Shown piece after piece: positions 11,248-32,095 of a DNA stretch of 32,095 nt. Below the pieces are notes generated by a model, which did no database searches, was not told the origin of the DNA, and saw only the letters and a program-made list of their open reading frames with translations. Position numbers and translations under genes: made by a program. The stretch covers positions 1 through 32,095 of IMG/VR virus record IMGVR_UViG_3300017963_000571; one strand, written 5' to 3'. This DNA comes from a virus. How positions within the stretch are numbered: position 1 is the stretch's first letter; each line of letters opens with the position of its first letter.

Positions 11248-14223
11248 TTACTCCGTGTCGGGCATGGCCGGGGGAGGGAACTCGGGCAGGGACGCCATAG
11301 CCTCGGGCTCCATGGTCGCGGGCCGCGTGATCCCAGCCGTCCCGAGAATCGGGAGCGGCGGAGCCGCCTCGTTCAGGAACTCGACAATCGCGTCCACGCG
11401 ATCGCGCTGGGGATGGCGTCCGAGCCGGTCCGCTGCGTCCTGCATGTGCGCCTGGGCCAGCCGCATGTGGAGGAGAGCCGCCTCGTGGTACGGGAGGAAC
11501 GCCGGGCCCGCGCACAGCATGGCACGCGAATAGCACTCCAGGGCCGTCATGTAACAGCCCTCATTCAGCCAGGAGAGGCCGAGGGAGGTCCACGCGCTCG
11601 CGTTGTGGGGGTCGTCCTGGAGTTCCAGTTCGATCAGACGACGATACCGCATGATCTTGGCCTCCATGGCGTCACGGTCTCGGGACAGGCCCGTGTTCGT
11701 GATCATGAACGGGGCCCGACGGATCACGGTCCCGAACCCCTGATCCACCAGGAACCGGGTGGCCTTGCCGAAACCCTCATGGACGCGGCCGGACATCCGC
11801 ATGATCCGGCGCTCGTCCAGCCGGGACATGCGGACGGACTCGGACTCGTTCGAGCCGCCGTCCGCGTACGTGTTCCGGAACGTGAAGATCCAGCCCCACG
11901 AGTCCGTGACCTCGGCCATTCTGCGGATCGCGTTGCCGGTGTTGCCGGACGGGAGGTGCTCGTCCGGGTCCAGGAAGAACGCCCACGAGACTCCGGGGGT
12001 GCCGTGAAGGGCGTCAAGCCCGGCGTTCCGAGCCTCCGCCATGTTGTCGTCCATCGGCTGGGCGACCCACTCCGCGCCGAAATGTTCCGCCATGCGGGCC
12101 ACCTCGATCGACGGGCCGGTCTCCGGCCAGTTCTCTTCGACCTCGGGGGACCACAGGTCCACCCGCGGGATCAGGGTGTCCCGGAGGTTTCCACCATGCC
12201 GGAGGGCCGTGGAGTACACCGCGCTCTGGGCTTCCTCGGTCCACTCGCCAGTCCACACGAGGACCATGCGGTCCATGAGGCAGAACACCGAGTCCAGCAT
12301 ACGGCCGAGGTCCTCCGCGCTCTCGCCCTCGTACATGAGGGCGTGGAATCCGATCCCGTTCTCCGGCAGGAACGCCGACATCACCTGATTCTCCTCATGG
12401 GTGATGTGGGCGTACGAGGTGCCTCCGACGAGGTTCGGGTTCGGGGTCGGGTCCTGCTCCCCATAGCGGGCCAGCTTGCGGAACCGGTCCTCCGCGCGCA
12501 TGTAGCCGAAGTGGCGGACACGGATACCGGCGTGTCGCTTGCAGATCCCATCCACCTGGGGGATGTTCCCGCAGTGGAGGCCGTTCTCTGTGCCGGCCAC
12601 GATGATCCGGCGTGCCTCGCGGTTGACGCGGTACAGTCTGAACCCCTGCATCCCGCCGCGGAACGAGCCCTGATCGCCCCAGGGCGGGGTAATGTTCATC
12701 CACCGATTGTTCGCCCAGTGGTTGACCCACGAGAAACCGAACGTCTGGACGAGCGGGTCCGGGTGACGGATCAGGCGGTCGAGGTGTTGGCGGGTCACCC
12801 GAGGCTCGGGGACCTCGTCGTGATCCATGGACAGGACCCAATCCGCGTCCATGTCCTCCTCCGCCATGCGGAGAACCTCGTTCCTCTCGTCTCGCTCGTT
12901 GAACTCGCCGGACCAGGATGCGACCTTGACCCTCGGGTTTCTGCTTCGCGGAGCCTGCCTGATCCACCGCCCGATCCAGGCCCGGAGGAGTCGTTCCTGG
13001 TCCTGTGGCCGCTTGCTCGCGTTGAGGACGAGGTCGACCACGTCCGGGGCGACACGCCCGGCTGGGAAGCCGGCTTGCCACTCTTCGCTGGACATCACCC
13101 CGGCCAGGGGTCCGGTCAGGAGGACGGAGATCCCATCCACGAGCCGGGACACGCCCACGATCGCCATGCGGAACAGGTCCAGATCGTGGGGCACATCGAA
13201 CCGCACCCGGTACGCGGCCACGATCCGATCGCCCTGGGCCTGGATCACTGGCCGCCAGACGTCATAGTACACACCGCGGTTGCGCATTCCACGCTGCATA
13301 TCGGGGAATTCCGCGTCGAACGTCTGGTGTCCGAGGTGACCCACGAACGCGTCCGCCGCGACCACTGCCCGCCACCCGGCGCGATCAGCGCGAGCGGCCA
13401 GATCGTTGTCCTCGTACCCTGCGATCTGGTATCGCTCATCGAACAGGCACCACGCGCCGTCACCGTCGACGAACGCCACATCCTCGATCATGTCGGCCAG
13501 GAACCCCTCGCAGAATCCGGAGAGGAACGTGGCAGAAATGACCTTGCCGGCGTAGTGTTCGGCCACCTCGGCGCCGAGCACGTCCGGGCCCACCTCCGCC
13601 ATGCGCTGGGCAAACTCCGGACCGAGGTTCTGGATACCGGCCGCGAGGTTCGACACTGGGCCGACGAGGCCGGGGCGTCCGTAGTCCGACATCCTCCGGA
13701 CGGGTCGGTGGCCGTCCGGGTCCGGAGTCTCGGACCACTCGCGGACGGTGTCGGACTCCAGGGCCGCGATCATGCGGATCAGCCACCCATCGGTCACGTG
13801 GAGATCATCGTTGAAGATCACGGACAAGGTCGGGAGCCCGTACCCGTCCGGGGGGAGGGTGGCGGGCCCGCCTCGGCCGCCGTGGTACACAACCTCCCCG
13901 TCCTCGGACAATCCCTCGGGGTCCATGATCGCGACGCGGAGACCGCGATTGATCGCGCCACCGAACCCACACGGTCCGGGGTGGCGGTAGATGGTCAGGT
14001 GAGACCCCTCGGGGGCCCCACGCTCCCAGAGGAACTGGAGGGAGGAGATCGACTCCTCCGCGTGCTCCTCCCGCAACGGGTTGACGGACGCCACGATGTG
14101 GAGCCGGAGGCCATCGTTCCGCTTCATGAGCAGATCAAAGGCCGGGAGTAGGACATTCGGGTTCGCAACGGTCGGGATGATCACGAGGACATCGTGGCTA
14201 TCATCGCGTGGCAGACTGGACAA
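11248..14223 (-). CDS. Multidomain glycosyltransferase: three GT-A-like modules and a TPR-like tail
   Basis: A 991-residue protein. I start it at TTG 14223 because GAGGAGGT lies 5 nt upstream; the frame further upstream is non-coding leader. Module 1 (about 10-300) looks like a GT2 enzyme: VLVIIPTV strand, FNDDLHVTDGW near 137 (acidic metal site), and GYEDNDLAARADRAGW near 268. Module 2 (about 430-560) has FNERDERNEV near 441 and MDHDEV near 465. Module 3 (about 720-820) has DDNMAEARNAG near 727, DPDEH near 753 and GRVHEG near 811, like GT2 enzymes of the SunS or WaaE type. Residues of about 850-930 resemble TPR helices. It likely transfers sugars made by the dehydrogenase and epimerase upstream to a virion or cell-surface acceptor. 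The acceptor is unknown. It sits between head closure and neck genes. Confidence 0.85.
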   Translation of the reverse strand: MSSLPRDDSHDVLVIIPTVANPNVLLPAFDLLMKRNDGLRLHIVASVNPLREEHAEESISSLQFLWERGAPEGSHLTIYRHPGPCGFGGAINRGLRVAIMDPEGLSEDGEVVYHGGRGGPATLPPDGYGLPTLSVIFNDDLHVTDGWLIRMIAALESDTVREWSETPDPDGHRPVRRMSDYGRPGLVGPVSNLAAGIQNLGPEFAQRMAEVGPDVLGAEVAEHYAGKVISATFLSGFCEGFLADMIEDVAFVDGDGAWCLFDERYQIAGYEDNDLAARADRAGWRAVVAADAFVGHLGHQTFDAEFPDMQRGMRNRGVYYDVWRPVIQAQGDRIVAAYRVRFDVPHDLDLFRMAIVGVSRLVDGISVLLTGPLAGVMSSEEWQAGFPAGRVAPDVVDLVLNASKRPQDQERLLRAWIGRWIRQAPRSRNPRVKVASWSGEFNERDERNEVLRMAEEDMDADWVLSMDHDEVPEPRVTRQHLDRLIRHPDPLVQTFGFSWVNHWANNRWMNITPPWGDQGSFRGGMQGFRLYRVNREARRIIVAGTENGLHCGNIPQVDGICKRHAGIRVRHFGYMRAEDRFRKLARYGEQDPTPNPNLVGGTSYAHITHEENQVMSAFLPENGIGFHALMYEGESAEDLGRMLDSVFCLMDRMVLVWTGEWTEEAQSAVYSTALRHGGNLRDTLIPRVDLWSPEVEENWPETGPSIEVARMAEHFGAEWVAQPMDDNMAEARNAGLDALHGTPGVSWAFFLDPDEHLPSGNTGNAIRRMAEVTDSWGWIFTFRNTYADGGSNESESVRMSRLDERRIMRMSGRVHEGFGKATRFLVDQGFGTVIRRAPFMITNTGLSRDRDAMEAKIMRYRRLIELELQDDPHNASAWTSLGLSWLNEGCYMTALECYSRAMLCAGPAFLPYHEAALLHMRLAQAHMQDAADRLGRHPQRDRVDAIVEFLNEAAPPLPILGTAGITRPATMEPEAMASLPEFPPPAMPDTE

Positions 14224-14237
14224 TCGGTACCTCCTCG

Positions 14238-14252
14238 CCCCCGTACCGGGGG
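14238..14252 (-). promoter_or_regulatory. C5/G5 hairpin next to the glycosyltransferase ribosome binding site
   Basis: On the minus strand CCCCC-GGTAC-GGGGG precedes the ribosome binding site and TTG start. An almost identical element precedes the epimerase (19745-19763): in both, the hairpin is followed at once by GAGGAGGT. A GTACCAC element on the plus strand (CGTGGTAC on the minus strand, 14264-14270) lies upstream and may be part of a promoter. Confidence 0.6.
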
Positions 14253-14295
14253 CCTGGGGTTCTGTACCACGCCGGAAGCCCCGAGGCACCTCGGC

Positions 14296-14377
14296 CCGAT
14301 ACCTCAACTTTTTTTTGACTTTGGAGTGGACTGGAGTGGCGATCGACCTCACGTCGAGCCGATACCTCACTTTTTTT
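14296..14377. repeat. Two direct copies of CCGATACCTCA(A)C plus a T-tract
   Basis: CCGATACCTCAAC followed by eight T lies at 14296-14316, and CCGATACCTCAC followed by seven T at 14359-14377. They lie between the divergent glycosyltransferase gene and the plus-strand promoter, so they could be operators or upstream elements for either side. The second T-tract is 65 nt from the plus-strand -35 box, as is the T-tract before the RNA promoter near 29.9 kb. The stretch 14224-14493 contains no gene. Confidence 0.6.
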
Positions 14378-14441
14378 CGGCTGTGAGTCCGCTGTGGTGG
14401 CGGCCTCGCGCGGCTTCGGTCAGAAAGTTTGGATTCTGGGT

Positions 14442-14469
14442 TTGACTTTCCTACGGGGTGCGGTATCTT
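14442..14469 (+). promoter_or_regulatory. Sigma70-like promoter, copy 1 of a duplicated element
   Basis: TTGACT, a 16-nt spacer and TATCTT, followed by GATGGTGCCAC. A near copy occurs at 29964-29991. The element faces the small plus-strand gene at 14494. Confidence 0.8.
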
Positions 14470-14493
14470 GATGGTGCCACACAGGAGAACAAC

Positions 14494-14796
14494 ATGAACC
14501 GCGCCGAAGCAGCCACCGCCTACCGAGCCGCCCGCAACGATTACAACGCAGCCGTCGAAGAGACCGGGATTAGCCACGGTGATTTTGACGCTAGGGTCCG
14601 CGAGCGTGTCCGTGACCTCTACGATGAGGGCCGGGCCGGGGCCGAGTTCACTCCTGCACAGTGGGTCGAGGCCGCCCTCGATTTCCTTTGTACCTACCTC
14701 ACCGGCTGGACGGTTCGGAACAGCCTGGACAACGGTGTCGGGGATTATCAGTACGAAATGGAGAGTCGCATGGCCGGGATCGACGGATGGACTTGA
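14494..14796 (+). CDS. Small acidic protein of unknown function, the only plus-strand gene
   Basis: A 100-residue protein, starting MNRAEAATAY at an ATG with AGGAGA a few bases upstream. It follows a consensus-like promoter and is followed by a rho-independent terminator, making a complete one-gene transcription unit opposite to all other genes. The sequence is helical and acidic, with an N-terminal helix rich in Ala and Arg, a central charged stretch (DARVRERVRDLYDE), and a Trp-rich C-terminus. No domain is recognised. Its own strong promoter suggests early or constitutive expression, for example host takeover, superinfection control or a regulator of the adjacent glycosyltransferase. These roles are guesses. 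Confidence 0.85.
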   Translation: MNRAEAATAYRAARNDYNAAVEETGISHGDFDARVRERVRDLYDEGRAGAEFTPAQWVEAALDFLCTYLTGWTVRNSLDNGVGDYQYEMESRMAGIDGWT

Positions 14797-14821
14797 TCCT
14801 CTAAAAACCAAGCGCGCACAG

Positions 14822-14850
14822 GGGCGGCTCTCGGGCCGCCCTTTGTCGTT
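14822..14850 (+). terminator. Rho-independent terminator of the small plus-strand gene
   Basis: GGGCGGC, a 6-nt loop and GCCGCCC form a 7-bp G+C stem followed by TTTGTCGTT. It begins 26 nt after the stop of the plus-strand gene. It would shield the minus-strand head-closure gene from antisense transcription. Confidence 0.85.
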
Positions 14851-14910
14851 CCAGTGCCAGCGGTCGTCCGGGAGGGCCTCGTCCTGTGTGGGGCCGTCTC
14901 GCCCGTCCGG

Positions 14911-15549
14911 CTACTCGATCGGTCTGGCTACCCGCTTCGCCATGATCCGCCAGTGCGAGGTGTACATGGCCCGCTCCTCGGTCACGGACTGGACCTCGTA
15001 CACGTCCCCCGTCCGGTCGTCCTGGATACGGTCCCCCTGCCTCGGGAGCCACGTGTCCTCATACTGGACCAGGAAGCGGACGGTGTCGGCCTCCATGGCC
15101 TCGGGGCGGTGTGCGGTCCAGATCCTCTCCGTGGCCCCACCTCTGGGGTCGTATGCGATCGGGAACCCGGGGCCCTTGAGGGCGTACAGGATCGGATAGG
15201 GGGAACCGTCCCTGGCGATCGCTTTCGCCTCGATGGTCGGTCGAGTCTTCACCCACTCGATCCCGGAGGAGTCAACCTCGGAGACATAGTCGAACAGTTT
15301 ACTCGTCACCTGGAACCCGTTCCCGTCGAACGTAAGGGTTTCCGTGTCGCCATTGGCCTGGGGGGTATTCCCCGTGACCACGACGTAGCCGGTAACGGAG
15401 GCCCCGTCGTACACCCTGACCTGAACCGCGGACGCTCCAGTGTACGGTCGATCTGGGGTGTGTTCGTCCCCGGCCGACACTGGGTCCAGGACATACGACG
15501 TTGCGCGCTTCCAGGTCGTGAGCATGTTCGCAATGGGGATGATCGACAC
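14911..15549 (-). CDS. Head closure (stopper) protein candidate
   Basis: A 212-residue protein starting at GTG 15549 with GGAGGCGTCC upstream. The C-terminal segment, with LPRQGDRIQDDRTGDVYEVQ and a WRIMAKRV strand, looks like the small beta-barrel of head-tail joining proteins (SPP1 gp16-like or Phage_H_T_join type), where a GDRI..G..YEV motif recurs. The N-terminus has a helix and a MLTTWKRATSYV stretch. It is longer than the usual 100-130 residues, with a middle part that looks like an insertion. Gene order adaptor, closure, neck, tail terminator is conserved if one ignores the sugar genes inserted on both sides. The assignment is from motif and order only. Confidence 0.6.
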   Translation of the reverse strand: MSIIPIANMLTTWKRATSYVLDPVSAGDEHTPDRPYTGASAVQVRVYDGASVTGYVVVTGNTPQANGDTETLTFDGNGFQVTSKLFDYVSEVDSSGIEWVKTRPTIEAKAIARDGSPYPILYALKGPGFPIAYDPRGGATERIWTAHRPEAMEADTVRFLVQYEDTWLPRQGDRIQDDRTGDVYEVQSVTEERAMYTSHWRIMAKRVARPIE

Positions 15550-15591
15550 GGACGCCTCCGGGGACAGCCTATCCCGTCGGAGGCCCCGGGA

Positions 15592-15768
15592 CTACCTCCG
15601 GCATCGCTCCAGGACCGTCTCCGTCCCGCGAGCCTGGACGGCAAGCCACGACAGGAGGGCCGCCAGGATGACGCCGCACAGAAGTTGGCCCTCGGGTGCC
15701 TCGAACGTAACGAGTCCGGCGGACAGGGTGAGCGTTGCGAGCGCGTAAGCGCCGATCACGGGTCGCAT
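15592..15768 (-). CDS. Two-TM small membrane protein, possible holin
   Basis: A 58-residue protein with GGAGGGACACC before its ATG. Hydrophobic segments at about residues 4-20 and 28-46 flank a short acidic turn (FEAPEGQ), and the C-terminus is basic (RGTETVLERCRR). Size, two membrane spans and a charged tail fit a holin, and no other holin candidate is seen in the window. It is far from the lysin gene, so the role is only suggested. A GTTAC element lies 23 nt before the start, so it may have its own promoter. Confidence 0.65.
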   Translation of the reverse strand: MRPVIGAYALATLTLSAGLVTFEAPEGQLLCGVILAALLSWLAVQARGTETVLERCRR

Positions 15769-15802
15769 GTGGTGTCCCTCCGGGCCGGTTGTAACCCCGG
15801 AC

Positions 15803-16321
15803 TCACGAGGTCGCATCCTCGGGGGCCACCTTGGGCTCCTCCGTGGAGGACTTGACCGGCTCCACGGGGCTCCCGTCCAGGCGCACGGGCTTGGCCTCAT
15901 CGGCCTTGACGGCCCCGAGGACCTGACGAACCACCGCAAGGGACAGCGCGGAGGGCTCGTTCGTCGCCTCCAGGAGCCACAGGTCTCCGGGGGCCGTCAC
16001 GAACACGCGGGCTCCGTGCTCGTCCAGGTCTCGGGCGACTTTGCCGCGCGGGGCCTTCGGCACGACCACGATCCGGATCGGATCTGGCATGGAGCGGACG
16101 GTATCCACGAGGCCGGAGCCCGCCACCTCGCACGCCACGACCGCGACACCGCCGCGCCGCCATGTGGCCACGTTGCCCGGCTTGTCTGGGGCCACGACAT
16201 CCGCCGAAGACCATCGAGACCGTTCGGCCCCCTGAACGGTAGCCAGGACGTCCGCTCGGAACAGGGTGTCCAGGCCGGGGGTGTTCATGCTGTAAGCGAG
16301 TCCGATCAGGATCTTGGACAT
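15803..16321 (-). CDS. Unknown protein in the sugar cassette
   Basis: A 172-residue protein with GGGGAGGAGGCACT before the ATG and a GTATCAC (plus strand) element 20 nt upstream of the start. It opens MSKILIGLAYSMNTPG. Alternating hydrophobic strands (VAVVACEV, RIVVVPKA, ARVFVTAPG) suggest a Rossmann-like alpha/beta fold of about 120 residues. The C-terminal 35 residues are an acidic and Pro-rich tail. No catalytic motif is seen. Its position after the SGNH and dehydrogenase genes suggests a link with carbohydrate work, but it is set apart from them by a strong hairpin. Confidence 0.75.
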   Translation of the reverse strand: MSKILIGLAYSMNTPGLDTLFRADVLATVQGAERSRWSSADVVAPDKPGNVATWRRGGVAVVACEVAGSGLVDTVRSMPDPIRIVVVPKAPRGKVARDLDEHGARVFVTAPGDLWLLEATNEPSALSLAVVRQVLGAVKADEAKPVRLDGSPVEPVKSSTEEPKVAPEDATS

Positions 16322-16359
16322 AGTGCCTCCTCCCCGGGACGTATCACGCGGAAGCACTA

Positions 16360-16391
16360 GGCGCCCGGCCTCCACCGCGAGACCGGGCGCC
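16360..16391 (-). terminator. Strong hairpin after the sugar gene operon
   Basis: GGCGCCCGG and CCGGGCGCC form a perfect 9-bp stem around a 14-nt loop. It lies downstream of the epimerase-dehydrogenase-SGNH operon and before the unknown gene. There is no clear T-run on either side, so it could be a rho-independent-like pause, a mRNA stabiliser or an operator. Confidence 0.55.
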
Positions 16392-16477
16392 GTTCTGCCG
16401 AGGATCGCCTGTGAGGCGTCCTGGAGGCCGAGACGGCTCACGGGGCGTCCGTGGCGTCGCGGCCTCACAGGGCCGTC

Positions 16478-17026
16478 CTACGGAGCGAGAGGAGCGCCAC
16501 CCAAGGCCATTGCCACACGATCAGCGATCCATGCGTACCCGTCCGGGGAGGGGAACACACCGTCCGCCAGGAGCCCCTCCGGCATGTCGTGGAGCCGGAC
16601 GATCCCGACGTCCCAGGCGTCCGCCATGGCCGCCACTGCGGGGGACACACGACGGACCCAGCGGCGGGAGGAGTGTCGGTACCCAGGGACCTCGGTGTGT
16701 CCGATTGGGGTCGGAGTACACACCAGGATCTCCGCGTCAGGAGCCAGGGCCGACACGGTCCCGACCGCCTGCTCCAGGAGGGCCACGAACTCGGACGGCG
16801 GGGTCCCGCTACCCCGGGCGTCCTCGGTCCCAACCTGGAGGATCGCGGTGGTGACGCTGGACCAGTCCACGCGGCGGGTCTCATGGACGACCTCGCGGAG
16901 GTTCAGGTCCGGACGCGCCCAGTTCTGGACCGTCCAGGTACCACGCCCGAGCGCCCATAGGTGGTCCGGCCAGCCGCGCGTGGAGCGCAACCCGTAGCAG
17001 ACGGAGCCACCCAGGCAGACGATCAC
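16478..17026 (-). CDS. SGNH-hydrolase-like protein lacking the catalytic His
   Basis: A 182-residue protein starting at GTG 17026, which overlaps the dehydrogenase stop as GTGA, with GGGAGGGCG upstream. The SGNH fold is suggested by VCLGGSVC near the N-terminus (nucleophile Ser8), GTED at 66-69 in the place of the G-x-N-D block, and DGVFPSPDGY at 155-164 in the place of DGxHP. The usual catalytic His is Phe158. It may be a degenerate esterase, bind carbohydrate without hydrolysis, or use another residue. In phages, SGNH proteins often deacylate surface glycans; here the coupling to sugar nucleotide genes suggests acyl-sugar metabolism. No signal peptide is present. Confidence 0.7.
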   Translation of the reverse strand: MIVCLGGSVCYGLRSTRGWPDHLWALGRGTWTVQNWARPDLNLREVVHETRRVDWSSVTTAILQVGTEDARGSGTPPSEFVALLEQAVGTVSALAPDAEILVCTPTPIGHTEVPGYRHSSRRWVRRVSPAVAAMADAWDVGIVRLHDMPEGLLADGVFPSPDGYAWIADRVAMALGGAPLAP

Positions 17027-18417
17027 GACGCCCTCCCGAGGCCGAAGCCGCGGTAGTCCAGGCCGTACAGGCCGGCCGCGTACGGGCTCCACATGCGCCG
17101 AGTATCCAGCACCACGCGCGGGTCCTCCATCACCGATGCGACCCACCGGAGATCCGCGCCGGCCACTTCCTCCCACGCCGTCCCGAGGACCAGCACGTGG
17201 GCGCCCTCGACCGCTTCGTGGACGTCAGCACATCGCACCTTGACGCCGAGGCCGTCCGCGTACGAAACCAGGGCCTCCTCCTCGGGAGGGGTTCCGGTGG
17301 GGTCGTACAGAACGATCTCCATGTTGTCCAGGTCACACGTGGACCTGACCATGGACCAGACGAACTCCATCGGGGGGCTTTCTCGCGTGTCATTCGTGCC
17401 GGGCTTGAACGTCAAACCCAACACCGCGACTTTCACGCTAGCGTCGATGAGCGGCGGGCGGGACATGGTGTCCCAGAACTGGCTGATCGCCCAGTTCTTT
17501 GCCTCCTCGTTCGACACGATAGCGCCGGACAGGGAGGGGACCGAGATCCCGCGGTCCACGGCCATGGACACCAGGGCCTGGACGTCCTTCGGGAAACACG
17601 ACCCGCCCCACCCGCCTCCAGGGGACAGGTATTGCGAGCCGATCCGGGGGTCCTCCCCGGCCAGCCGGGCCACCGCCACCGCGTCCGCCCCGACCGACGC
17701 GCACACCCGCGCGAGGTCATTTAGCGCGGACAGGCGTGCGGCCAGAAGGCAGTTTGATGCGTACTTTGTCGTCTCCGCGTTCTCCAGGGTGGTGAGGTGC
17801 TGACGGTTGAACGGGGCCATGGCCGCCTGGACGAGGTGGACGGCCGTAAGAGACCCGCATGTCGGTGCACCGATCACGACGCGCGACGGGTCCCGCGCGT
17901 CCGCCAGGGCCGTCCCCTCCGCCAGGAACTCGGGGGAGTGGTACAGGTCGGACCAGTCCGCGCCCCACTTGTCCCGGAGGCCCTCCAGGAGCCGCCGACA
18001 CGTACCCGGGAGCACCGTCGACTTGATCACGATCGCCCGCTGATCCGGCGCGTGATCTCCGATCGCGTTGCGCCAGTCCTCGACAGCCCCGACTAGGGCC
18101 GTATCGTTCTGGTGCCCGCCGTCCGTCGGAGTCCCGACACACACGATCGTGACGTCCGCCGCCGCCAGGGCGTCCACAGCCACCGGATCGCCCCGGAGGT
18201 ACACGTCCAGGGAGCCCTTCGCCCCGAGGCCGATCCCGAGGTGGATGTCCACCAGGGCCTCCTCCAGGCCGTCCTCGTACAGGAGGGGACGCTGTTCCCG
18301 GAGGGCTCGCGCTCGCTCCTCGTCCGCCTCGATCACGCTCACCTCGTGGCCGCGCTCCGCGAGCACAACAGCCGTGGGCGTTCCGACGAACCCCGCGCCG
18401 ATGATCGCGACTTTCAC
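17023..18417 (-). CDS. UDP-glucose 6-dehydrogenase-like enzyme
   Basis: A 464-residue protein, the usual size for the family. It should oxidise UDP-glucose to UDP-glucuronate with two NAD+. Visible are the dinucleotide-binding GAGFVG at residues 7-12, a VCVGTPTD strand, KSTVLPGT, SPEFLAEGTA, an ENAETTKYASN helix, and GGSCFPKD with the catalytic Cys at about 274. The C-terminal domain has LGLTFKPGTNDTRESP. FPKD points to UDP-glucose rather than GDP-mannose dehydrogenase; a UDP-HexNAc substrate cannot be excluded. The start is GTG 18417, overlapping the epimerase stop as GTGA; the SGNH gene overlaps its own stop. The three genes form one coupled operon. Confidence 0.92.
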   Translation of the reverse strand: MKVAIIGAGFVGTPTAVVLAERGHEVSVIEADEERARALREQRPLLYEDGLEEALVDIHLGIGLGAKGSLDVYLRGDPVAVDALAAADVTIVCVGTPTDGGHQNDTALVGAVEDWRNAIGDHAPDQRAIVIKSTVLPGTCRRLLEGLRDKWGADWSDLYHSPEFLAEGTALADARDPSRVVIGAPTCGSLTAVHLVQAAMAPFNRQHLTTLENAETTKYASNCLLAARLSALNDLARVCASVGADAVAVARLAGEDPRIGSQYLSPGGGWGGSCFPKDVQALVSMAVDRGISVPSLSGAIVSNEEAKNWAISQFWDTMSRPPLIDASVKVAVLGLTFKPGTNDTRESPPMEFVWSMVRSTCDLDNMEIVLYDPTGTPPEEEALVSYADGLGVKVRCADVHEAVEGAHVLVLGTAWEEVAGADLRWVASVMEDPRVVLDTRRMWSPYAAGLYGLDYRGFGLGRAS

Positions 18418-19733
18418 TGGGCACCCCCGAGGAGGCCGGCCGCGTGGAGTTCCGCGTGGGCCTTGTTGAGGGTGGTCTCGTCCTCGTCCTGCTGGTCTCG
18501 GACCCAGTCGACGAGGTCCGCGATTCCGTCCGCCAGGACCACCTCCGGCTCCCACCCGAGGGCCCGCAGCTTGGACGCGTCCGCGTAGCAGTGCCGGATG
18601 TCGCCGGAGCGCCACTCGCCCGTGATCGACATCGGGGGCTCCTCGTCGTCCCCGAGGTCCATGAGGTGGCGGCCGATTGCGGCCGCGACCTCGCGGATCG
18701 TGGTCGGCTTGCCGGTCCCGACGTTGTACGCCTCGCCCGGCTCCCCGTCCTCCAGGATCGCCAGGATTGCGGACGCGACGTCCCGCACGTGGATGAAGTC
18801 GCGGCACTGCTCCCCGTCCTCGTACACGATCGGCACCGAGCCGGACAGGTAACGGGCCGAGAAGATAGCCCCGACACCGGTGTACGGGTTCGACAGGGCC
18901 TGACGCGGGCCGTACGTGTTGAACAGCCGGCCGACCCGGACGTCCAGGCCGCGGACCTGACCGATCAGGAGGGACAGTTCCTCCTGTTGCGCCTTGCTCC
19001 AGGCGTACACGGACGCCGGCCAGAAGTCGGACGCCTCCGTGATCCCGATCGGTCGGAGCCCGCTCGCCCACGCGTCACGAGTCACGGCCTCGAACCACCC
19101 TCCGGACATGTCGTCCTCGTCGCGAGAGGCGCCGCGGAGGGTCCAGCCTTCCCCCTGGACGTCCTCCCCGTACAGGCCCTCCCCGTACGAGGACATCGAT
19201 CCGGCCACGAACACCCGGTCCACGAGCCGGTCCGGGAGGGCCTCCACGCGCTCGCGGAGGAGCCGGTCCGCCTCGGTCGCGCGGGCCTCCGCTGCCTCCT
19301 GGGTCTCGCCCTCCAGGGGCGACACGTCCAGGGGCTCCCAGTTCGCCAGTTCCCGCTCGCGGTCGCGTACCAGCCCGTTGTGGGCCAGGATCGCGTCCAG
19401 GAGGGCCGCGGTTCCGGTGACGTTGCAGGACACGTAGGGGGCCGGCATGGTGTCCCCCTGGGCTACTCCGACGCGAGCCGCGAGGTGGATCACGGTATCC
19501 GGCCGGAACTCGGCCAGGGCCGCCAGGACCGCGTGGACGTCGCGGACGTCTCCGAACCACGTCTCCAGGCCCTCGGTGTCCGGGTCCTGGTAGTCCGGCC
19601 ACGCCGGAGTCAGCGGATGGACCTGGGCCAGGAGACAGTCGAACGACATCACCTGACACCCGCGCTCCAGGAGAGCGTCAACCACGTGCGAACCGATGAA
19701 CCCAGCGCCACCGGTAACGAGAACTCGTTCCAT
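18414..19733 (-). CDS. NAD-dependent sugar epimerase, dTDP-L-rhamnose 4-epimerase-like
   Basis: A 439-residue extended SDR enzyme. The Rossmann motif TGGAGFIGS is at 7-15, the catalytic pair is Tyr243 and Lys247 in YAWSK, and Ser179 lies in VAGSMSSYGEG. NTYGPRQALSNPYTGV, CRDFIHV, YNVGTGKPTTI and GDIRHC follow in order. The MS-x-YGEG and NPYTGV motifs resemble WbiB-type dTDP-L-rhamnose 4-epimerases, which make dTDP-6-deoxy-L-talose; a UDP-glucuronate epimerase or decarboxylase role is the alternative and would use the next enzyme's product. It is longer than typical (about 330-370) owing to an acidic insert at about 120-170. A hairpin leader and GAGGAGGT precede the ATG. Confidence 0.88.
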   Translation of the reverse strand: MERVLVTGGAGFIGSHVVDALLERGCQVMSFDCLLAQVHPLTPAWPDYQDPDTEGLETWFGDVRDVHAVLAALAEFRPDTVIHLAARVGVAQGDTMPAPYVSCNVTGTAALLDAILAHNGLVRDRERELANWEPLDVSPLEGETQEAAEARATEADRLLRERVEALPDRLVDRVFVAGSMSSYGEGLYGEDVQGEGWTLRGASRDEDDMSGGWFEAVTRDAWASGLRPIGITEASDFWPASVYAWSKAQQEELSLLIGQVRGLDVRVGRLFNTYGPRQALSNPYTGVGAIFSARYLSGSVPIVYEDGEQCRDFIHVRDVASAILAILEDGEPGEAYNVGTGKPTTIREVAAAIGRHLMDLGDDEEPPMSITGEWRSGDIRHCYADASKLRALGWEPEVVLADGIADLVDWVRDQQDEDETTLNKAHAELHAAGLLGGAQ

Positions 19734-26680: not shown

Positions 26681-28405
26681 CTACTCCCAGTAGGCTCCGG
26701 ATCTATCGTGGATCTCCTGTGCGACCCTGGAGTACGCGTCCGCGTGCCGGTAGTGATCGGGGTCCGTCCCTTCCTCCCACACGAACCGCTGGGACTTTTC
26801 GTTCAAAACCCGCACAGGGGCCCTCATTTGCTCGCGGAACCCGAGTACCGTCGATGCGTCCGACGCGAGCCGTCGGGTCCGGTTCTCCAATTCAGCCAGA
26901 CACGTATCGAGAAGCTGGGTTCTATCTACCTGGACCACCTGTTCCTCGTACTTCAGGGTGAGCCCGAACGCGTCCGCGCCCACCTTGCCCTGGCCCACGT
27001 ACTCGCACAGCCATACCTGACACTCGCCGTTTTCGATGAAATGGTCCCGGACCTCCTTTGCTTTCCGCGTTTCTGGCCGAGCGTCGATCACCATGACGTC
27101 CACGTGATACCGGTCCTGGATGTCATACAGATCCTCGAAGTTCAGGACCGCGCCGATCCATATGTTCTCCCTGACATATCCCTCTCCGGTCTCGTCGAGT
27201 TCCAGCCGATCCACGAACACATTGATCACGGACCCGACGTCCACGCCCATCACCAGGGTGTGATCTTCGTACTCGTGACTCCCGTTGTGATCCAGGGGGC
27301 GCTGGCCCTCCATGGCCCGATCCAGGATTAGGTCCGTTACCCTGGACCCAGCGGAGGCATAGGGCCATCCGAGGTTTCCTGCCCAGAACGCCTCCAGGCG
27401 CCGCGGATCACCTTGCGCCAGAACCCACTCCGAGAAGATCGCCCGGATCGGTTGCGGGTCGCGATTCGAGGACAACACGTCCAGGCGGGACATGTGGAAC
27501 GTTTCGGACATCCGATCCGGATACGAGGAGACCCACACCCCGCCGTCCGCCCGGCGCTCGAATGGCAGATCGCACCCGGAGCACACCGGCCGGAGATCTC
27601 CGGCCCCGGGGTCCTTCAGGCGCTCCGTGTCGCGAGGCAGCCACACCCCGCCGTCACCCTGAAATGCGAAGTGGGTGAACCAGTCGAGATATTGCTTTCT
27701 ACCGCATCTCTCGCACTGGTGATACCACCGAGCCTGGGTCCCCTCTTTCCACATGCGCTGAACGCCGCGCCCTGGAATTCTCGGGTTTGAAACCTTGATC
27801 ACCTGCGGGTGGGCCGACTCTTTGACGCGGTCGCCGATTTTCGCGATATTCCCGAGGTCGCACGCGTCGTACTCGTCCACGATCGCGAGGTCCGCCGAGA
27901 ACTCCAGGAAGTCGGATTCTGTATTCGACCCCAGAAACAGGATAGACCCGTTCCGCCCGAATCTTTTTCTCTTCAGGTTGCCTTTCGATCCACCCGAGGC
28001 GTCCAGCCCTCGCTCCCCGCCAGGGAGCCGGGCTCGGTACGCTGGCGTCCGGAGGAGGAGCGGGTCCACGCGATCCGCCACGAACCGCTCGCACGTTTTG
28101 TACTGGGGCAGCACGTAAGCACAGATCCGGTCCTCCCACCCGGCCTGATACAGGACAAGCTGGATCAGGAGTTCGGACAGGCCGGTCTGGACGCCCTTGC
28201 AGAACACAGCGTCCCGGATCGTGGGCATTGCGTGGTATAGGTGGATCAGGTACGGCTTGTCCGCAAAAGACATAGGTTGTCCGCGCTTATTCGTGTGATG
28301 AACGCGGGACAGACCCAGGAGCGGATAGCCCTGGTGGAGGCTCTGGCACAGTGAGGAGTGCGCCTCGCGCGGTCCCACCTCGCGGGTCTCGTTGTCGTCC
28401 GCCAT
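26681..28405 (-). CDS. terL: Terminase large subunit
   Basis: A 574-residue ATPase-nuclease for DNA packaging. The ATPase region shows the Q-x-G-x-S/T-E Walker A variant near 69-79 (CKGVQTGLSE) and the Walker B VDEYDA near 176-181. A zinc pair of CxxC motifs lies at 231-234 (CERC) and 275-278 (CSGC), recalling GpA-type terminases. The nuclease part has GVDVGS near 387-392, a VMVIDAR strand with Asp441, and HADAYSRV near the C-terminus, together supplying acidic residues for metal binding. The start at ATG 28405 gives a normal N-terminal helix; it lacks a strong ribosome binding site, and ATG 28273 (MSFADKPY) is an alternative. No small terminase is recognised upstream. Confidence 0.93.
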   Translation of the reverse strand: MADDNETREVGPREAHSSLCQSLHQGYPLLGLSRVHHTNKRGQPMSFADKPYLIHLYHAMPTIRDAVFCKGVQTGLSELLIQLVLYQAGWEDRICAYVLPQYKTCERFVADRVDPLLLRTPAYRARLPGGERGLDASGGSKGNLKRKRFGRNGSILFLGSNTESDFLEFSADLAIVDEYDACDLGNIAKIGDRVKESAHPQVIKVSNPRIPGRGVQRMWKEGTQARWYHQCERCGRKQYLDWFTHFAFQGDGGVWLPRDTERLKDPGAGDLRPVCSGCDLPFERRADGGVWVSSYPDRMSETFHMSRLDVLSSNRDPQPIRAIFSEWVLAQGDPRRLEAFWAGNLGWPYASAGSRVTDLILDRAMEGQRPLDHNGSHEYEDHTLVMGVDVGSVINVFVDRLELDETGEGYVRENIWIGAVLNFEDLYDIQDRYHVDVMVIDARPETRKAKEVRDHFIENGECQVWLCEYVGQGKVGADAFGLTLKYEEQVVQVDRTQLLDTCLAELENRTRRLASDASTVLGFREQMRAPVRVLNEKSQRFVWEEGTDPDHYRHADAYSRVAQEIHDRSGAYWE

Positions 28406-28431
28406 GCGGACAGGGTATCTCGTGGAGGTGT

Positions 28432-28692
28432 CTAGCGCCCGTCAGGCCCGCGAGGATTGCCCACGAGGGCTCCGGCCGCTCCAGACGGCTTCCGGCCCGC
28501 CCTGACCCTGTGCGGCTCCACAGATAGACCTCCGACCCCGAGGAGGGCGGCCCGTCCGGGAGGGAGGAGGACGCCCTGGACTACCCCACCCGAGTCCTCG
28601 ATCGTGATCGAGGTCCCCTCCAGGAACACGAGCCGGAGATAGCGGGCCGGGGCCGCGTGGAAATCGGACACCCTGACTCTGATCTCTGCCAT
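28432..28692 (-). CDS. Phd/YefM-like antitoxin
   Basis: An 86-residue protein whose ATG overlaps the upstream stop as TGATG and is preceded by GAGGAGGGAG. Its first half follows the Phd/YefM pattern: RVRVSDFHAAPARYLRLVF, then a Gly/Thr turn, ITIEDSGGVVQGVLLPP, which matches a V-S-x-F-R-x-x-x-x-x-Y-L helix, then G-x-x-I-x-I-x-x-x-G and a V-L-x-P strand. The C-terminus is short, basic and disordered. No toxin gene is seen next to it. A lone antitoxin could neutralise a host toxin or act as DNA-binding regulator. The genes upstream overlap or are closely spaced, suggesting co-transcription. Confidence 0.72.
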   Translation of the reverse strand: MAEIRVRVSDFHAAPARYLRLVFLEGTSITIEDSGGVVQGVLLPPGRAALLGVGGLSVEPHRVRAGRKPSGAAGALVGNPRGPDGR

Positions 28693-28928
28693 CACTCCCT
28701 CCTCACTCGTCCTGTTCTGGTCACCGCGCCGCCCTTCCTGCGACGGGGGCCGAGCCACCACTCTCTGGCGCACGCGTCGGAGCACGCCTCGATGGAGATC
28801 CCATCGACCTCCACCGGTTCGGCTCCGATGTGCGCAAGGTGCCGGACCTGGACGCCTCCGATCGGATCGTCCTGGACTCGGTACGTGTATCTGGCCGGGC
28901 CGTTACAGCATATGCAGCGCGGAACCAT
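28692..28928 (-). CDS. Small cysteine-rich protein
   Basis: A 78-residue protein starting at ATG 28928 with GGAGGAGCC upstream. The sequence CICCNG near residues 5-8 and CSDAC near 49-53 give a C-x-x-C plus C-x-x-x-C set, consistent with a single zinc site. The C-terminus is basic (RRRKGG and RVRRE). It could bind nucleic acid. It overlaps the antitoxin gene, so both are likely made from one mRNA. A GTTAC element 27 nt before the start suggests its own promoter. The long open frame extending upstream lacks a ribosome binding site. Confidence 0.7.
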   Translation of the reverse strand: MVPRCICCNGPARYTYRVQDDPIGGVQVRHLAHIGAEPVEVDGISIEACSDACAREWWLGPRRRKGGAVTRTGRVRRE

Positions 28929-28980
28929 GGCTCCTCCGTGTGGCTGCACATGTTGTAACGCGGAGCCAGGGAGGCCCCGG

Positions 28981-29496
28981 TCACGCCTGACCCACCGACC
29001 CCTCGGGCAGGAACCAGGAGTCTCCGTGGGCGACCACCCCGGGCTCCATGTCGTCGGCCATCTGGCGGATAGCCTCGGGGAGTTCCACGGTCTTCCACTC
29101 TGGATACATGCCTCGGGCAATGCCGATCGCGGTGAGGAGGGTCTCCCGGAGGGATGGTTCCTCCAGGACGGGCCTCGTATCGAGGTGGATCATGATCGGC
29201 GCGGCCGACAATCCATCCAGTACCCGAGAATTCAGGACGGGGCCCGCTAGGTGGCGCTCCGTAGTCGACAGGAACGCGTCCCACTGCGGGACTCCGTTAA
29301 TCACACCGATCGCGACCCAGCGACGAGGAGCCGCAAACAGCCACGCCCCCGAGACTTGGCCCCCGATCACTAACGCGTCCGGCACGGGGTCTTCACATAC
29401 GGCCACCGCCCCGCCCATGTTCAACATGATCCGGGACGCCTCCACCCCATCGCGATCATCAATTAGGGCGAGGTCCCACCCGTCGGCCGGGATCAT
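28981..29496 (-). CDS. Unknown 171-residue protein
   Basis: Starts MIPADGWDLALID at an ATG that overlaps the previous stop as ATGA, with GGGGGGAGG upstream. Alternating hydrophobic strands (ALIDDRD, AVAVCEDP, ALVIGGQVSG, VAIGVINGV, APIMIHL) and a C-terminal helix with RETLLTAIGIA suggest a compact alpha/beta fold. No motif assigns a function. It is coupled to the gene before it, so the two may form a complex. It precedes the packaging genes, where phages often keep small regulators or packaging accessories. Confidence 0.7.
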   Translation of the reverse strand: MIPADGWDLALIDDRDGVEASRIMLNMGGAVAVCEDPVPDALVIGGQVSGAWLFAAPRRWVAIGVINGVPQWDAFLSTTERHLAGPVLNSRVLDGLSAAPIMIHLDTRPVLEEPSLRETLLTAIGIARGMYPEWKTVELPEAIRQMADDMEPGVVAHGDSWFLPEGSVGQA

Positions 29497-29837
29497 CGCC
29501 TCCCCCCGGACAGGTCGGGGAACTCGATCTGGGTCGTCTCCGGGACCGGTTCGCGCCCGAGCAGGTACACGACGTCCCACCGATGGCCGTCCTCCAGGAG
29601 TGTGCGGACGCGGAGCCCGATGCCATGAATCACGACCCGCCCGGTGAGGCTCGCGCGAGCCTGAGCCAGGAGAGCCTCCAGGGTTTCCACATCCAAGAAC
29701 AGCCGCCGATCGGCCGGGTCTTTCGGCCCTCCGATCTCGATGTCCCGCACCGTCGATCGGCCCGGCTCGTGTAGGATTGCGCGCTCCACCTGACGGTCGG
29801 ACAGCGCGGACAGCGGCAGAAGGGGCCTATCGCCCAT
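29493..29837 (-). CDS. Unknown 114-residue protein, first gene of the minus operon after the RNA gene
   Basis: I start it at ATG 29837, preceded by AGGAGGTGATC, almost a full anti-SD match; an ATG two codons earlier overlaps that site. The sequence has an N-terminal helix (SALSDRQVERAILHE), then a beta-rich core with DIEIGGP, FLDVETLEALLAQAR and VVIHGIGLRVRTL. No domain is recognised. It overlaps the next gene as ATGA. A GTTAC element lies 21 nt before the ATG. In many phages a small DNA-binding terminase subunit sits near here, but there is no helix-turn-helix to support that. Confidence 0.7.
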   Translation of the reverse strand: MGDRPLLPLSALSDRQVERAILHEPGRSTVRDIEIGGPKDPADRRLFLDVETLEALLAQARASLTGRVVIHGIGLRVRTLLEDGHRWDVVYLLGREPVPETTQIEFPDLSGGRR

Positions 29838-29906
29838 GATCACCTCCTGGACCCCTTGTAACGGCCACGCCGCAAACCAAGCGGGCCCAAACTTTTTTCC
29901 CGACGT

Positions 29907-29929
29907 GAATCAGCCACCATGGCCGATTC
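29907..29929. promoter_or_regulatory. Operator-like inverted repeat
   Basis: GAATCAGCC and GGCCGATTC are inverted with one mismatch around ACCAT. It lies 35 nt upstream of the plus-strand -35 box and about 70 nt from the minus-strand gene, so a regulator bound here could affect both directions. Confidence 0.4.
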
Positions 29930-29963
29930 ATGCCGGGTACGAGAAAAAGATTCGATCTAGGGT

Positions 29964-29991
29964 TTGACGGTAACCCGGAATCGGCTATCTT
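29964..29991 (+). promoter_or_regulatory. Sigma70-like promoter, copy 2 of the duplicated element
   Basis: TTGACG, a 16-nt spacer and TATCTT, then GAGGGTGCCAC. It matches the promoter at 14442-14469 and lies about 46 nt before the tRNA-like RNA. Confidence 0.8.
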
Positions 29992-30036
29992 GAGGGTGCC
30001 ACGCCGGAACGGTCACTGACAACGCGATACGACAAT

Positions 30037-30273
30037 GGTAGCGGAACCTGGAGGTCCAGGGTGCCTAGCAGCACGATCGAGTAATCGACCGAGACCCCCT
30101 CCGCAAGTCCACCGGACGAACCCGCGAGTGGCCACCGCCCAGGCAGCGGCCCCGCATGAGAGCCTTGCGAGGCTCCGTCCCGGGCCGCACCGCGGCGCTC
30201 GGAGCCGGGCCGGACGGATGAGGGGAGGAGGGAAGTCGGATACAAGGTTGGGGTTCGAGTCCCCCCGCTACCG
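30037..30273 (+). ncRNA. Structured RNA with tRNA-like ends (tmRNA-like or intron-containing tRNA candidate)
   Basis: GGTAGCGG at 30037-30044 and CCGCTACC at 30265-30272 are perfectly complementary, like an acceptor stem. Just before the 3' strand is a T-arm: GGGG, the canonical loop TTCGAGT at 30254-30260, then CCCC. Between them lie further hairpins, including GAGCCT-TGCG-AGGCTC at 30160-30175, CGTCC/GGACG around 30176-30216, and CCTGG-AGGT-CCAGG next to the 5' strand. No CCA is encoded. The overall plan (about 237 nt, no normal D or anticodon arm) fits tmRNA best, but the third pair is U-A rather than G-U, so alanine charging is not supported and no tag reading frame is convincing. A promoter precedes it. 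Confidence 0.55.
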
Positions 30274-30288
30274 CTCGCGCTCGCGTCG

Positions 30289-30888
30289 CTAGGCCGGGGG
30301 AGTCCAGCCGTCCAGTGTGATCAGCTTGTATCCTGGTTTCAGGTCGAAACTTCCCGCCGTGATGAAGTTGGGCGCGTACACGTACAGGATCAGATACGAG
30401 ATCGTTTTGAGCAGTCCATCCTGTGACAGGACGCGATCCTGCTGGACGTTGCTACTGTCCAGGATGGCTGCGATATTTGTGCAGTTCACCGAGTATCCGC
30501 GGGACTTGATCTGCCCATAGAACTCGTCGTCCGCGCCCTGGTATGCGGTCGCCACCCCGGTAGTCAACGCGGCCCATGTGCCTCCGACGTCCTGTCGAAT
30601 TCCGGCCCACTTGACCGTTCCGTCGGAGAACTCGAACCCCAGACCGCAATCACACTGGCCGAACCCGCCGCCGATCAGGGAGGACAAAATCTCCATGCGG
30701 ACCAGCATATCCCACGGGAGATTCTGATCGAACCCGTCCGGAAGGGGCATCCTGAACAGGGCCGCTCCGGTCGTGGCCCCGGTCAGCGTGAACCGATACC
30801 CGCCCGTTATGACGGCCACCGATGACAGGACCCCGTTCGGGTCCAGGGGGGACATTGCGGTGGGATCGAATACATCGAACGTGGTCAT
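30289..30888 (-). CDS. Probable tail-associated structural protein
   Basis: A 199-residue protein with ATG overlapping the previous stop as ATGA. It opens MTTFDVFDPTAMSP, is rich in beta-strand residues, Gly and Thr, and ends in YAPNFITAGSFDLKPGYK. No transmembrane or enzymatic motif is visible. The pattern and the coupling to the next upstream gene point to a virion surface, fibre or tip component. The gene ends 16 nt from the 3' end of the convergent RNA gene, and I see no terminator between them. Function is not proved. Confidence 0.7.
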   Translation of the reverse strand: MTTFDVFDPTAMSPLDPNGVLSSVAVITGGYRFTLTGATTGAALFRMPLPDGFDQNLPWDMLVRMEILSSLIGGGFGQCDCGLGFEFSDGTVKWAGIRQDVGGTWAALTTGVATAYQGADDEFYGQIKSRGYSVNCTNIAAILDSSNVQQDRVLSQDGLLKTISYLILYVYAPNFITAGSFDLKPGYKLITLDGWTPPA

Positions 30889-31652
30889 GGCAGATCCATA
30901 GATTCGAGAGAAAGCGCGTAAACGAGCAGGTCTTTTAGCTTGAACGTCTGGCCAGACGCTCCGGTCCCCTTGCTGATGATCGCGATCCCAACGAATTCGA
31001 AGTCCCCGACCAGGGACCCGATCGCATTAAACGCCAGGGTCGCCGCTCTTGGATCGGCTGTGTTCTGCCTGTACACCAGGAGGTCCACGCTATTCCCGGT
31101 GGCGTCAATCGTCGTTATGGTTCCGCCGAGATACGGGTTCGAGGCGTACAGTGCATTCTGGTGCCCCGACACCGTACCGCCCACCTCTGTTACGTCCTGG
31201 GTGTATGTGGCGAACGTCGGATCGCGGCGCCACCCGATCCCGGCGTGGTCGCTGGCGCTGTCATTGCATTTGACTACGATACAGATCGAGACGGAATCAT
31301 CGTCTCCGTACAGGACCTCCGTCAGCATGGACTTGATGATTGTAGGCTTTGTAAGGTCGATAGAGCCACCGTCGGCCGTCACGATATCGATCGGATACAG
31401 AACAGTCCCGGACGTGGAGCCATCCACCACGATCACATAGTCTGATCCGGAAAGGGCCCAGTCTGTGGTGATGATCGCCACATCGCCCTGCTTCGTCAGG
31501 GTAGTGGGGTCCACCAGTTGCCACGCCGTGGATAGAGTGTCCCCGGCCGACACCCCATCACCCTGGATCGAGGCATACTCCGACAGGGCCACCCCTTGCC
31601 ATTCCTCAAGCCCGCTAGTCAGAGAACCCTGGATCTCCTCTTTGTCAGCCAT
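30885..31652 (-). CDS. Probable tail-associated structural protein
   Basis: A 255-residue protein. I start it at ATG 31652 (MADKEEIQGS), 8 nt after the upstream stop, with a run of seven G upstream as ribosome binding site; the longer frame lies inside the previous gene. The sequence is rich in Thr, Ser, Gly and Asp with regular hydrophobic strands (DYVIVVDGST, VSICIVVKC, FVGIAIISKG), typical of beta-structured tail or fibre proteins. The overlap with the next gene means both are made together. No known domain is recognised. Confidence 0.7.
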   Translation of the reverse strand: MADKEEIQGSLTSGLEEWQGVALSEYASIQGDGVSAGDTLSTAWQLVDPTTLTKQGDVAIITTDWALSGSDYVIVVDGSTSGTVLYPIDIVTADGGSIDLTKPTIIKSMLTEVLYGDDDSVSICIVVKCNDSASDHAGIGWRRDPTFATYTQDVTEVGGTVSGHQNALYASNPYLGGTITTIDATGNSVDLLVYRQNTADPRAATLAFNAIGSLVGDFEFVGIAIISKGTGASGQTFKLKDLLVYALSLESMDLP

Positions 31653-31660
31653 GACCCCCC

Positions 31661-32095
31661 CTATGACGTGGACAGCTTGGACCACATGGTGTCCTGGAAC
31701 ATCCAGATCTCACCCGTATCCGGGAGGCACTGGCATACGATCCGGCTGTATTCACCAGAACCCGCAGCCGGAGGCACAGTATCAGCGAGTCCCGTGGTGG
31801 CCGACACGTACAGGAACCCCCCCGCGCTCCAGTTCGTTACACCCGCGGAGGTGGAAAGACGCTTCCCGGGTCCGACGAACACGCCAGACACGGCCGGATC
31901 GTGCCCGAGAGGGAACCCCGCGAGTCCAGCCGTACGCTCCTCGAACAGGGAACACGCCTCCACCCAGTCCCCGCTCGTGGTGTTCAAAACGTGGAGCGCG
32001 CCCGTCAGGAGACCGGAGCCGCCACCCTCGTACGTGACCGTCCCCCGGCCGCTGTTCGAGATCGCCTCCAGTAGATCGATCACTCTCTGGGTCCA
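31661..32095 (-). CDS. C-terminal part of a tail protein, 5' end outside the window
   Basis: The frame is open for 144 residues from the window edge to TAG at 31663-31661. A GTG at 32083 is possible, but no ribosome binding site precedes it, so the frame is probably truncated. The sequence (RVIDLLEAISNSG, GLLTGALHVLNTTSG, GGFLYVSATTG) is the end of a beta-rich tail protein. Its reading frame starts on the last base and would continue in frame from the large protein at 1-2814 if the ends are joined. Confidence 0.7.
   Translation of the reverse strand, partial: WTQRVIDLLEAISNSGRGTVTYEGGGSGLLTGALHVLNTTSGDWVEACSLFEERTAGLAGFPLGHDPAVSGVFVGPGKRLSTSAGVTNWSAGGFLYVSATTGLADTVPPAAGSGEYSRIVCQCLPDTGEIWMFQDTMWSKLSTS

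Follow-up and report, generated by a model that had tools for sequence, protein, structure and literature searches.

An acceptor/T branch divided 8/4, together with the signs of serine identity, is the mark of the allo-tRNAs of environmental bacteria (PMC7609411). These RNAs, described in 8/4 and 9/3 forms (Mukai et al. 2017), have been reviewed along with irregular, non-translating forms from soil metatranscriptomes, and both 8/4 branches with Ser identity and translation-inactive forms are known from metagenomes (PMC7609411). SerRS recognises G73 and the long extra arm without regard to the anticodon, and in tRNASec the D-arm has a stem of 6 bp closed by a loop of 4 nt (PMC7609411). With regard to processing, RNase P holds the acceptor/T stack in a clamp and cuts RNAs with such a stack, non-tRNA substrates included, and the CCA enzyme likewise measures this stack (PMC4919913); known RNase P substrates include the phage M3 and C4 RNAs (PMC11143913). 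The tRNAs encoded by phages are usually given one of two explanations, help with decoding or replacement of tRNAs that host defences have destroyed (PMC11555353).

In the stretch of DNA from an uncultured phage analysed here (an IMG/VR virus record of 32,095 bases, referred to as the window), nearly all recognisable genes lie on the minus strand, and those recognised there encode terminase, portal, protease, capsid, tape measure and sugar-modifying enzymes. A 237-nt RNA gene candidate occupies the plus strand at 30037-30273, in a 445-nt gap bordered by a minus-strand ORF ending at 30289 and a minus-strand ORF starting at 29843. The elements named in a preliminary description of this DNA (8-bp end pairing, TTCGAGT T-loop, inner hairpins and promoter) were all present at this locus, and its proposed extent was kept with one correction: the acceptor stem itself stops at 30272, which leaves G30273 unpaired as the discriminator. 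The following features were distinguished:

29964-29991, plus strand: sigma-70-like promoter TTGACG-16-TATCTT, the sole promoter-like site in 28400-32095
29998-30036, plus strand: predicted 5' leader, placed from the anatomy
30037-30044, plus strand: 5' strand of the acceptor stem, GGUAGCGG, exact complement of 30265-30272, pairing probability ~1
30045-30046, plus strand: linker AA, two nt, equivalent to tRNA positions 8-9, by direct reading
30047-30060, plus strand: D-arm-like hairpin CCUGG-AGGU-CCAGG, 5 bp with a 4-nt loop containing GG, pairing probability 0.99-1.0
30061-30074, plus strand: hairpin GUGC-CUAGCA-GCAC at the anticodon-arm position, 4 bp with a 6-nt loop, pairing probability 0.99-1.0
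30075-30249, plus strand: giant extra arm of 175 nt at the variable-arm position, a GC-rich branched stem in the MFE structure
30250-30264, plus strand: T-arm GGGG-UUCGAGU-CCCC with a 4-bp stem
30265-30272, plus strand: 3' strand of the acceptor stem, CCGCUACC, directly adjoining the T-arm
30273, plus strand: unpaired discriminator G73, followed by CUC

The acceptor and T stems form an uninterrupted 12-bp branch, which is split 8+4, as opposed to the usual 7+5, since C65 can pair with G8 but not with U49. G1-C72 and G2-C71 are features of serine tRNAs; both pairs are found here and give, together with G73, a serine-type acceptor, after which CCA is not encoded. The acceptor sequence GGUAGCG/CGCUACC with G73 is identical to that of an Actinomyces tRNA-Ser. 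The D-arm-like hairpin begins exactly 2 nt past the acceptor, which is the spacing of a tRNA, and with its 5-bp stem and AGGU loop its nearest likeness is the D-arm of tRNASec. The CUAGCA loop at the anticodon position contains neither U33 nor a proper anticodon, and the hairpin at 30061-30074 is unusable for decoding. Elbow-forming nucleotides are present in both loops (GG in the D-loop, UUCGA in the T-loop), and the order of a cloverleaf is complete, running from the acceptor through the D-arm, the anticodon-position hairpin and an insert at the extra-arm position to the T-arm. Pairing probabilities of the acceptor, D, anticodon-position and T helices were 0.96-1.0, and that of the extra-arm base (30075-30249) was only ~0.5; the exact fold of this large arm is unreliable because of the high GC content of the locus (70.5%). 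This structure is established by sequence and statistics. The 8/4 branch, the tRNASec-like D-arm, the serine-type acceptor with G73 and the placement of the insert at the extra-arm position are additions to the preliminary description, and overall we regard the locus as a candidate for a genuine, unusual tRNA-like RNA gene.

The candidate has the 12-bp acceptor/T stack and a D-arm with a GG loop, as expected of a tRNA, and it lacks an anticodon arm of 5 bp with a 7-nt loop and U33 and was not recognised by tRNA models. The 8/4 acceptor branch with G73 of an allo-tRNA is likewise present, and a decoding anticodon arm is missing. As for tmRNA, position 3 is a U paired to A70 where a G3-U70 pair is expected, and no covariance-model match with a tag frame was obtained. 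The candidate is outside the tRNA, tmRNA and allo-tRNA families as defined, because one defining feature of each fails, and is tRNA-like at its ends and elbow. This bears out the earlier view that the RNA resembles a tRNA without being a normal one or a tmRNA, and that it lacks both a G3-U70 pair and an encoded CCA.

The likeness to allo-tRNAs comprises the 12-bp acceptor branch (8+4), G73, a long extra arm and an environmental source, and some allo-tRNAs are also inactive in translation; allo-tRNAs have, however, a normal anticodon arm and an ordinary class II extra arm, whereas the candidate has a degenerate anticodon arm and an extra arm of 175 nt. The abstract of the original allo-tRNA paper of 2017 reportedly mentions phages too. 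With bacterial tRNASec the candidate shares the 8-bp acceptor, a D-arm with a 4-nt loop containing GG, G73 and a long extra arm, but it differs from the 8/5 branch, 6-bp D-stem and decoding anticodon arm of that tRNA and has no Rfam match. Like tmRNA, it has tRNA-like ends around a long non-tRNA insert; unlike tmRNA, it has a true D-arm, no G3-U70 pair, no tag reading frame and no model match, and in the absence of G3-U70 its identity is not that of a tmRNA. In common with the phi80 M3 RNA and the P1/P7 C4 antisense RNA, it is a phage-encoded small RNA for which RNase P processing is expected for the same structural reason, whereas, in contrast to these, it matches no Rfam family and its tRNA likeness goes far beyond the needs of RNase P.

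The candidate is a solitary gene, outside any tRNA cluster as judged by ARAGORN. Two ORFs overlap it, at 30035-30292 on the plus strand and at 29985-30245 on the minus strand; a protein-coding reading of either was rejected by codon statistics (log-odds of -0.52 and -0.16, respectively, in comparison with about +0.3 for the terminase), and GC by codon position was flat in both. The promoter at 29964-29991 is weak evidence when taken alone, since 0.6 such sites are expected in 28400-32095 by shuffling, and a search for a terminator just downstream of the candidate returned none. Transcription from this promoter would start near 29998. In a fold of 29997-30310, ACGCGA of the leader (30022-30027) can pair with UCGCGU of the trailer (30281-30286). 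The acceptor/T stack of an RNase P-type substrate is present in the sequence, and the RNA is, by analogy, probably matured by this enzyme, which would gauge the length of the 12-bp branch starting at the elbow and cleave at U30036/G30037; a cut at this site is expected because RNase P cleaves RNAs with such a stack. Trimming of the 3' end would then leave G73, to which the host CCA enzyme would add CCA.

With moderate confidence, we read the locus as encoding a functional, phage-encoded, non-decoding tRNA mimic built on an 8/4 serine/selenocysteine-type scaffold. In its favour are the uniqueness of the structure in the window, the D-arm at tRNA spacing, the near-certain pairing of the main helices, the same-strand promoter, the acceptor shared with an Actinomyces tRNA-Ser, the non-coding character of both overlapping ORFs, the known 8/4 RNAs and RNase P substrates, and a second phage RNA of similar build in contigs L016 and L023; against it count the partial match to a serine-tRNA covariance model, the missing terminator, the high GC content and the small number of near-identical contigs. 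Other readings were weighed against this mimic, and the relatives of the candidate bear on the first of them. The RNA was found in three contigs of one virus, namely the window and two others, which are 99.6-99.9% identical. No base differences were observed among them at 29801-30381, and nine differing sites were present in the following 1.7 kb, a sample too small to speak of conservation. A nucleotide search of phage records returned nothing, and related loci sought via a neighbouring protein and the terminase led to the same virus only. A decaying phage tRNA, that is, an 8/4 Ser/Sec-type gene that has lost its anticodon arm, acquired an insertion in its extra arm and has no present function, would be in keeping with the many irregular tRNA genes of phage tRNA regions and with the degenerate hairpin at the anticodon position. 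It is harder to square with perfect acceptor, D and T helices and a good promoter, with a solitary gene away from any tRNA cluster and with an RNA that is unchanged among three contigs differing elsewhere, tiny as this sample is; we consider decay unlikely, although it is the alternative that fares best.

A fold arisen by chance in GC-rich intergenic DNA, from which no RNA is made, was addressed by a descriptor scan that combined a T-loop TTCRANY, a T-stem of 4 or 5 bp and a contiguous, exact 8- or 7-bp acceptor partner at most 320 nt upstream. The window gave a single match (30037-30272), and 150 dinucleotide-preserving shuffles of it gave none; 3 chance matches turned up across 8.8 Mb of shuffled viral DNA, so that ~0.01 would be expected in 32 kb. 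Hairpins of 5 bp with a GG loop start 1-3 nt past a given position at 1.7% of positions, and exactly 2 nt past it at 0.5%. As a product of these separate rates, the chance of finding the branch and the D-like hairpin together is roughly 1e-4. Folding, one of the checks proposed in the preliminary description, was favourable for 30035-30275 (MFE of -121.9 kcal/mol, z = -3.0); another, covariance models, was negative for Rfam tmRNA and group I. A GC content of 70%, the overall z of only -0.5 for the precursor fold (29997-30310) and the restriction of the relatives to three near-identical contigs would suit an accidental structure, but UUCGAGU, a D-loop with GG and a 12-bp branch in the right order do not, given their combined chance of ~1e-4, and we hold this reading to be highly improbable.

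Still less credit can be given to an attachment site, in which the 3' end of a host tRNA gene would have been copied for integration and the 5' pairing would be fortuitous. Other viral matches to the T-arm pattern look like such sites, for example a tmRNA 3' end in contig L012. Here, however, copying would account for the T-arm and not for a full 5' acceptor strand and a D-arm at tRNA spacing; no integrase turned up among those window proteins that were searched, nor was one apparent in the ORFs listed for the 3.9 kb outside the window (L003). Moreover, a scan of ~85,000 prokaryote genomes with the 3' end found one tRNA, this Actinomyces tRNA-Ser(CGA), with the same acceptor (GGUAGCG/CGCUACC plus G73), and its T-loop differs from that of the candidate; no other tRNA 3' end in these genomes was identical.

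A tRNA gene interrupted by an unknown kind of intron, which splicing would turn into a decoding tRNA, has a still slimmer chance. The large insert within otherwise tRNA-like ends is what such a gene would show, and inserts of ~50 nt do occur in other phage tRNAs of the loci compared. Nevertheless, none of the excisions of an internal stretch left an anticodon arm of 5 bp and 7 nt with U33 when the D- and T-arms were kept as found, so that exons joining into a canonical tRNA were lacking, and the D-arm is itself not an ordinary one. ARAGORN at default scores, with its intron and tmRNA modes included, gave no match at the locus, and Rfam, at gathering and up to E 10, returned chance matches only, with no group I/II intron among them. 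The self-splicing intron considered in the preliminary description is not supported on these grounds, as no splice restores a 5-bp/7-nt anticodon arm.

Hardly credible is a true class II tRNA that decodes in spite of its abnormal anticodon arm and has merely an enlarged extra arm. The cloverleaf order and the serine-type acceptor speak for it, and against it stand the 6-nt CUAGCA loop on its 4-bp stem, with no U33 and no proper anticodon, and the behaviour of a serine-tRNA covariance model built here, which aligned the 3' half only (13.2 bits, E 0.28) and missed the true 5' half. A link to translation of an amber-interrupted gene had also been suggested and finds no support; the same-frame TAGs lie between apparently ordinary neighbouring ORFs, no convincing interrupted gene was seen, and the CUA within the CUAGCA loop is not readable as a usual anticodon because U33 is missing. 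Least probable of all is the reduced tmRNA proposed earlier, for which the long insert enclosed by tRNA-like ends would argue, and which is not supported given the lack of G3-U70, of a recognisable tag frame, of an Rfam tmRNA match to E 10 and of an ARAGORN tmRNA, and given the real D hairpin.

Returning to the functional, non-decoding tRNA mimic, its product would be a stable RNA that appears as a class II tRNA to tRNA-binding proteins and is unusable for ribosomal decoding. It could occupy such proteins, SerRS being the first candidate because this enzyme depends on G73 and a long extra arm and not on the anticodon, and the giant arm would be the effector part. Its most likely use would come during infection, when it might serve as a decoy or otherwise counter host functions that target tRNAs, or act as a stable regulatory RNA whose ends are made by tRNA processing. 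Since phages deploy ordinary tRNAs against tRNA-targeting defences (PMC11555353), a decoy would be the most natural guess; a regulatory role in which tRNA-like ends confer stability is equally possible, and any specific role is put forward with less confidence than the mimic itself. A non-decoding RNA that keeps the features measured by tRNA-binding proteins would suggest that phages use the tRNA shape for decoy or regulatory purposes. It would also mark a blind spot of tRNA finders, which reported nothing at this locus.

Scans of viral contigs with T-arm, D-arm and acceptor-variant patterns revealed no homologue of the candidate, and other irregular tRNA-like RNAs turned up. A second RNA that ARAGORN does not report is carried by L016 and L023, two contigs with this sequence in common; its acceptor is an exact 8 bp, its branch is 8/4 and its insert measures 112 nt. 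Shorter irregular RNAs include those of L093 (117 nt) and L067 (90 nt, tRNASec-like); none of these has evident sequence homology to the window RNA. These findings suggest, without proving it, that tRNA-like RNAs misfitting tRNA models recur in phages. As a tentative extension, possible if somewhat doubtful, tailed phages may encode recurrent non-decoding tRNA mimics that combine an acceptor/T branch and elbow with a 70-200-nt effector arm, lack an anticodon arm, and may be charged or bound by SerRS or act as decoys for tRNA-cleaving defences. If so, the window RNA and the unrelated L016/L023 RNA would be two examples. The 12-bp branches in L009, L133, L134 and L209 were not counted, as they are probably parts of neighbouring genes joined together, or chance.

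The same scans yielded several observations on other loci. The 90-nt RNA at L067:604-693 (minus strand) is an 8/4 tRNA whose D-loop has 4 nt and whose anticodon loop reads CUUCAA; this phage-borne gene of tRNASec-like form went unreported by ARAGORN. Further phage tRNA genes missed by this program were found at L225:3690-3806 and 3979-4096 (plus strand), L232:1424-1541 and 1045-1162 (minus strand), L244:1236-1353 and 857-974 (minus strand) and L197:676-792 (minus strand); they carry inserts of ~45-50 nt near the anticodon arm with a common hairpin and a motif like GGUUAUCU..AGAUACGGACAGCAAUU, and apparently form a family of small introns or insertions in tRNA genes. Phage tRNAs at L091:90-227 and 610-738 (minus strand) and L164:5802-5929 (minus strand) have tens of extra nucleotides between acceptor and D-loop, reminiscent of the five-stem junction of irregular allo-tRNAs. 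At L012:7462-7481, a tmRNA 3' end lies right after an apparent integrase C-terminus, a typical attachment site.

With regard to the rest of the window, a host search via the terminase in Actinobacteria genomes gave weak matches only, the best at 31% identity. A block of sugar-modifying genes stands amid the structural genes at 11248-19733 and contains a two-domain glycosyltransferase, a UDP-glucose/GDP-mannose dehydrogenase and an NAD-dependent epimerase; in this mostly minus-strand region, a plausible plus-strand ORF for a 112-aa protein is located at 14458-14796. Finally, a near-perfect inverted repeat with arms of ~18 bp (CCCGaCgTGAATCaGCCA / TGGCcGATTCAtGcCGGG) lies at 29899-29938, upstream of the minus-strand ORF at 29843; it has no T-run in terminator position on either strand and is possibly an operator.
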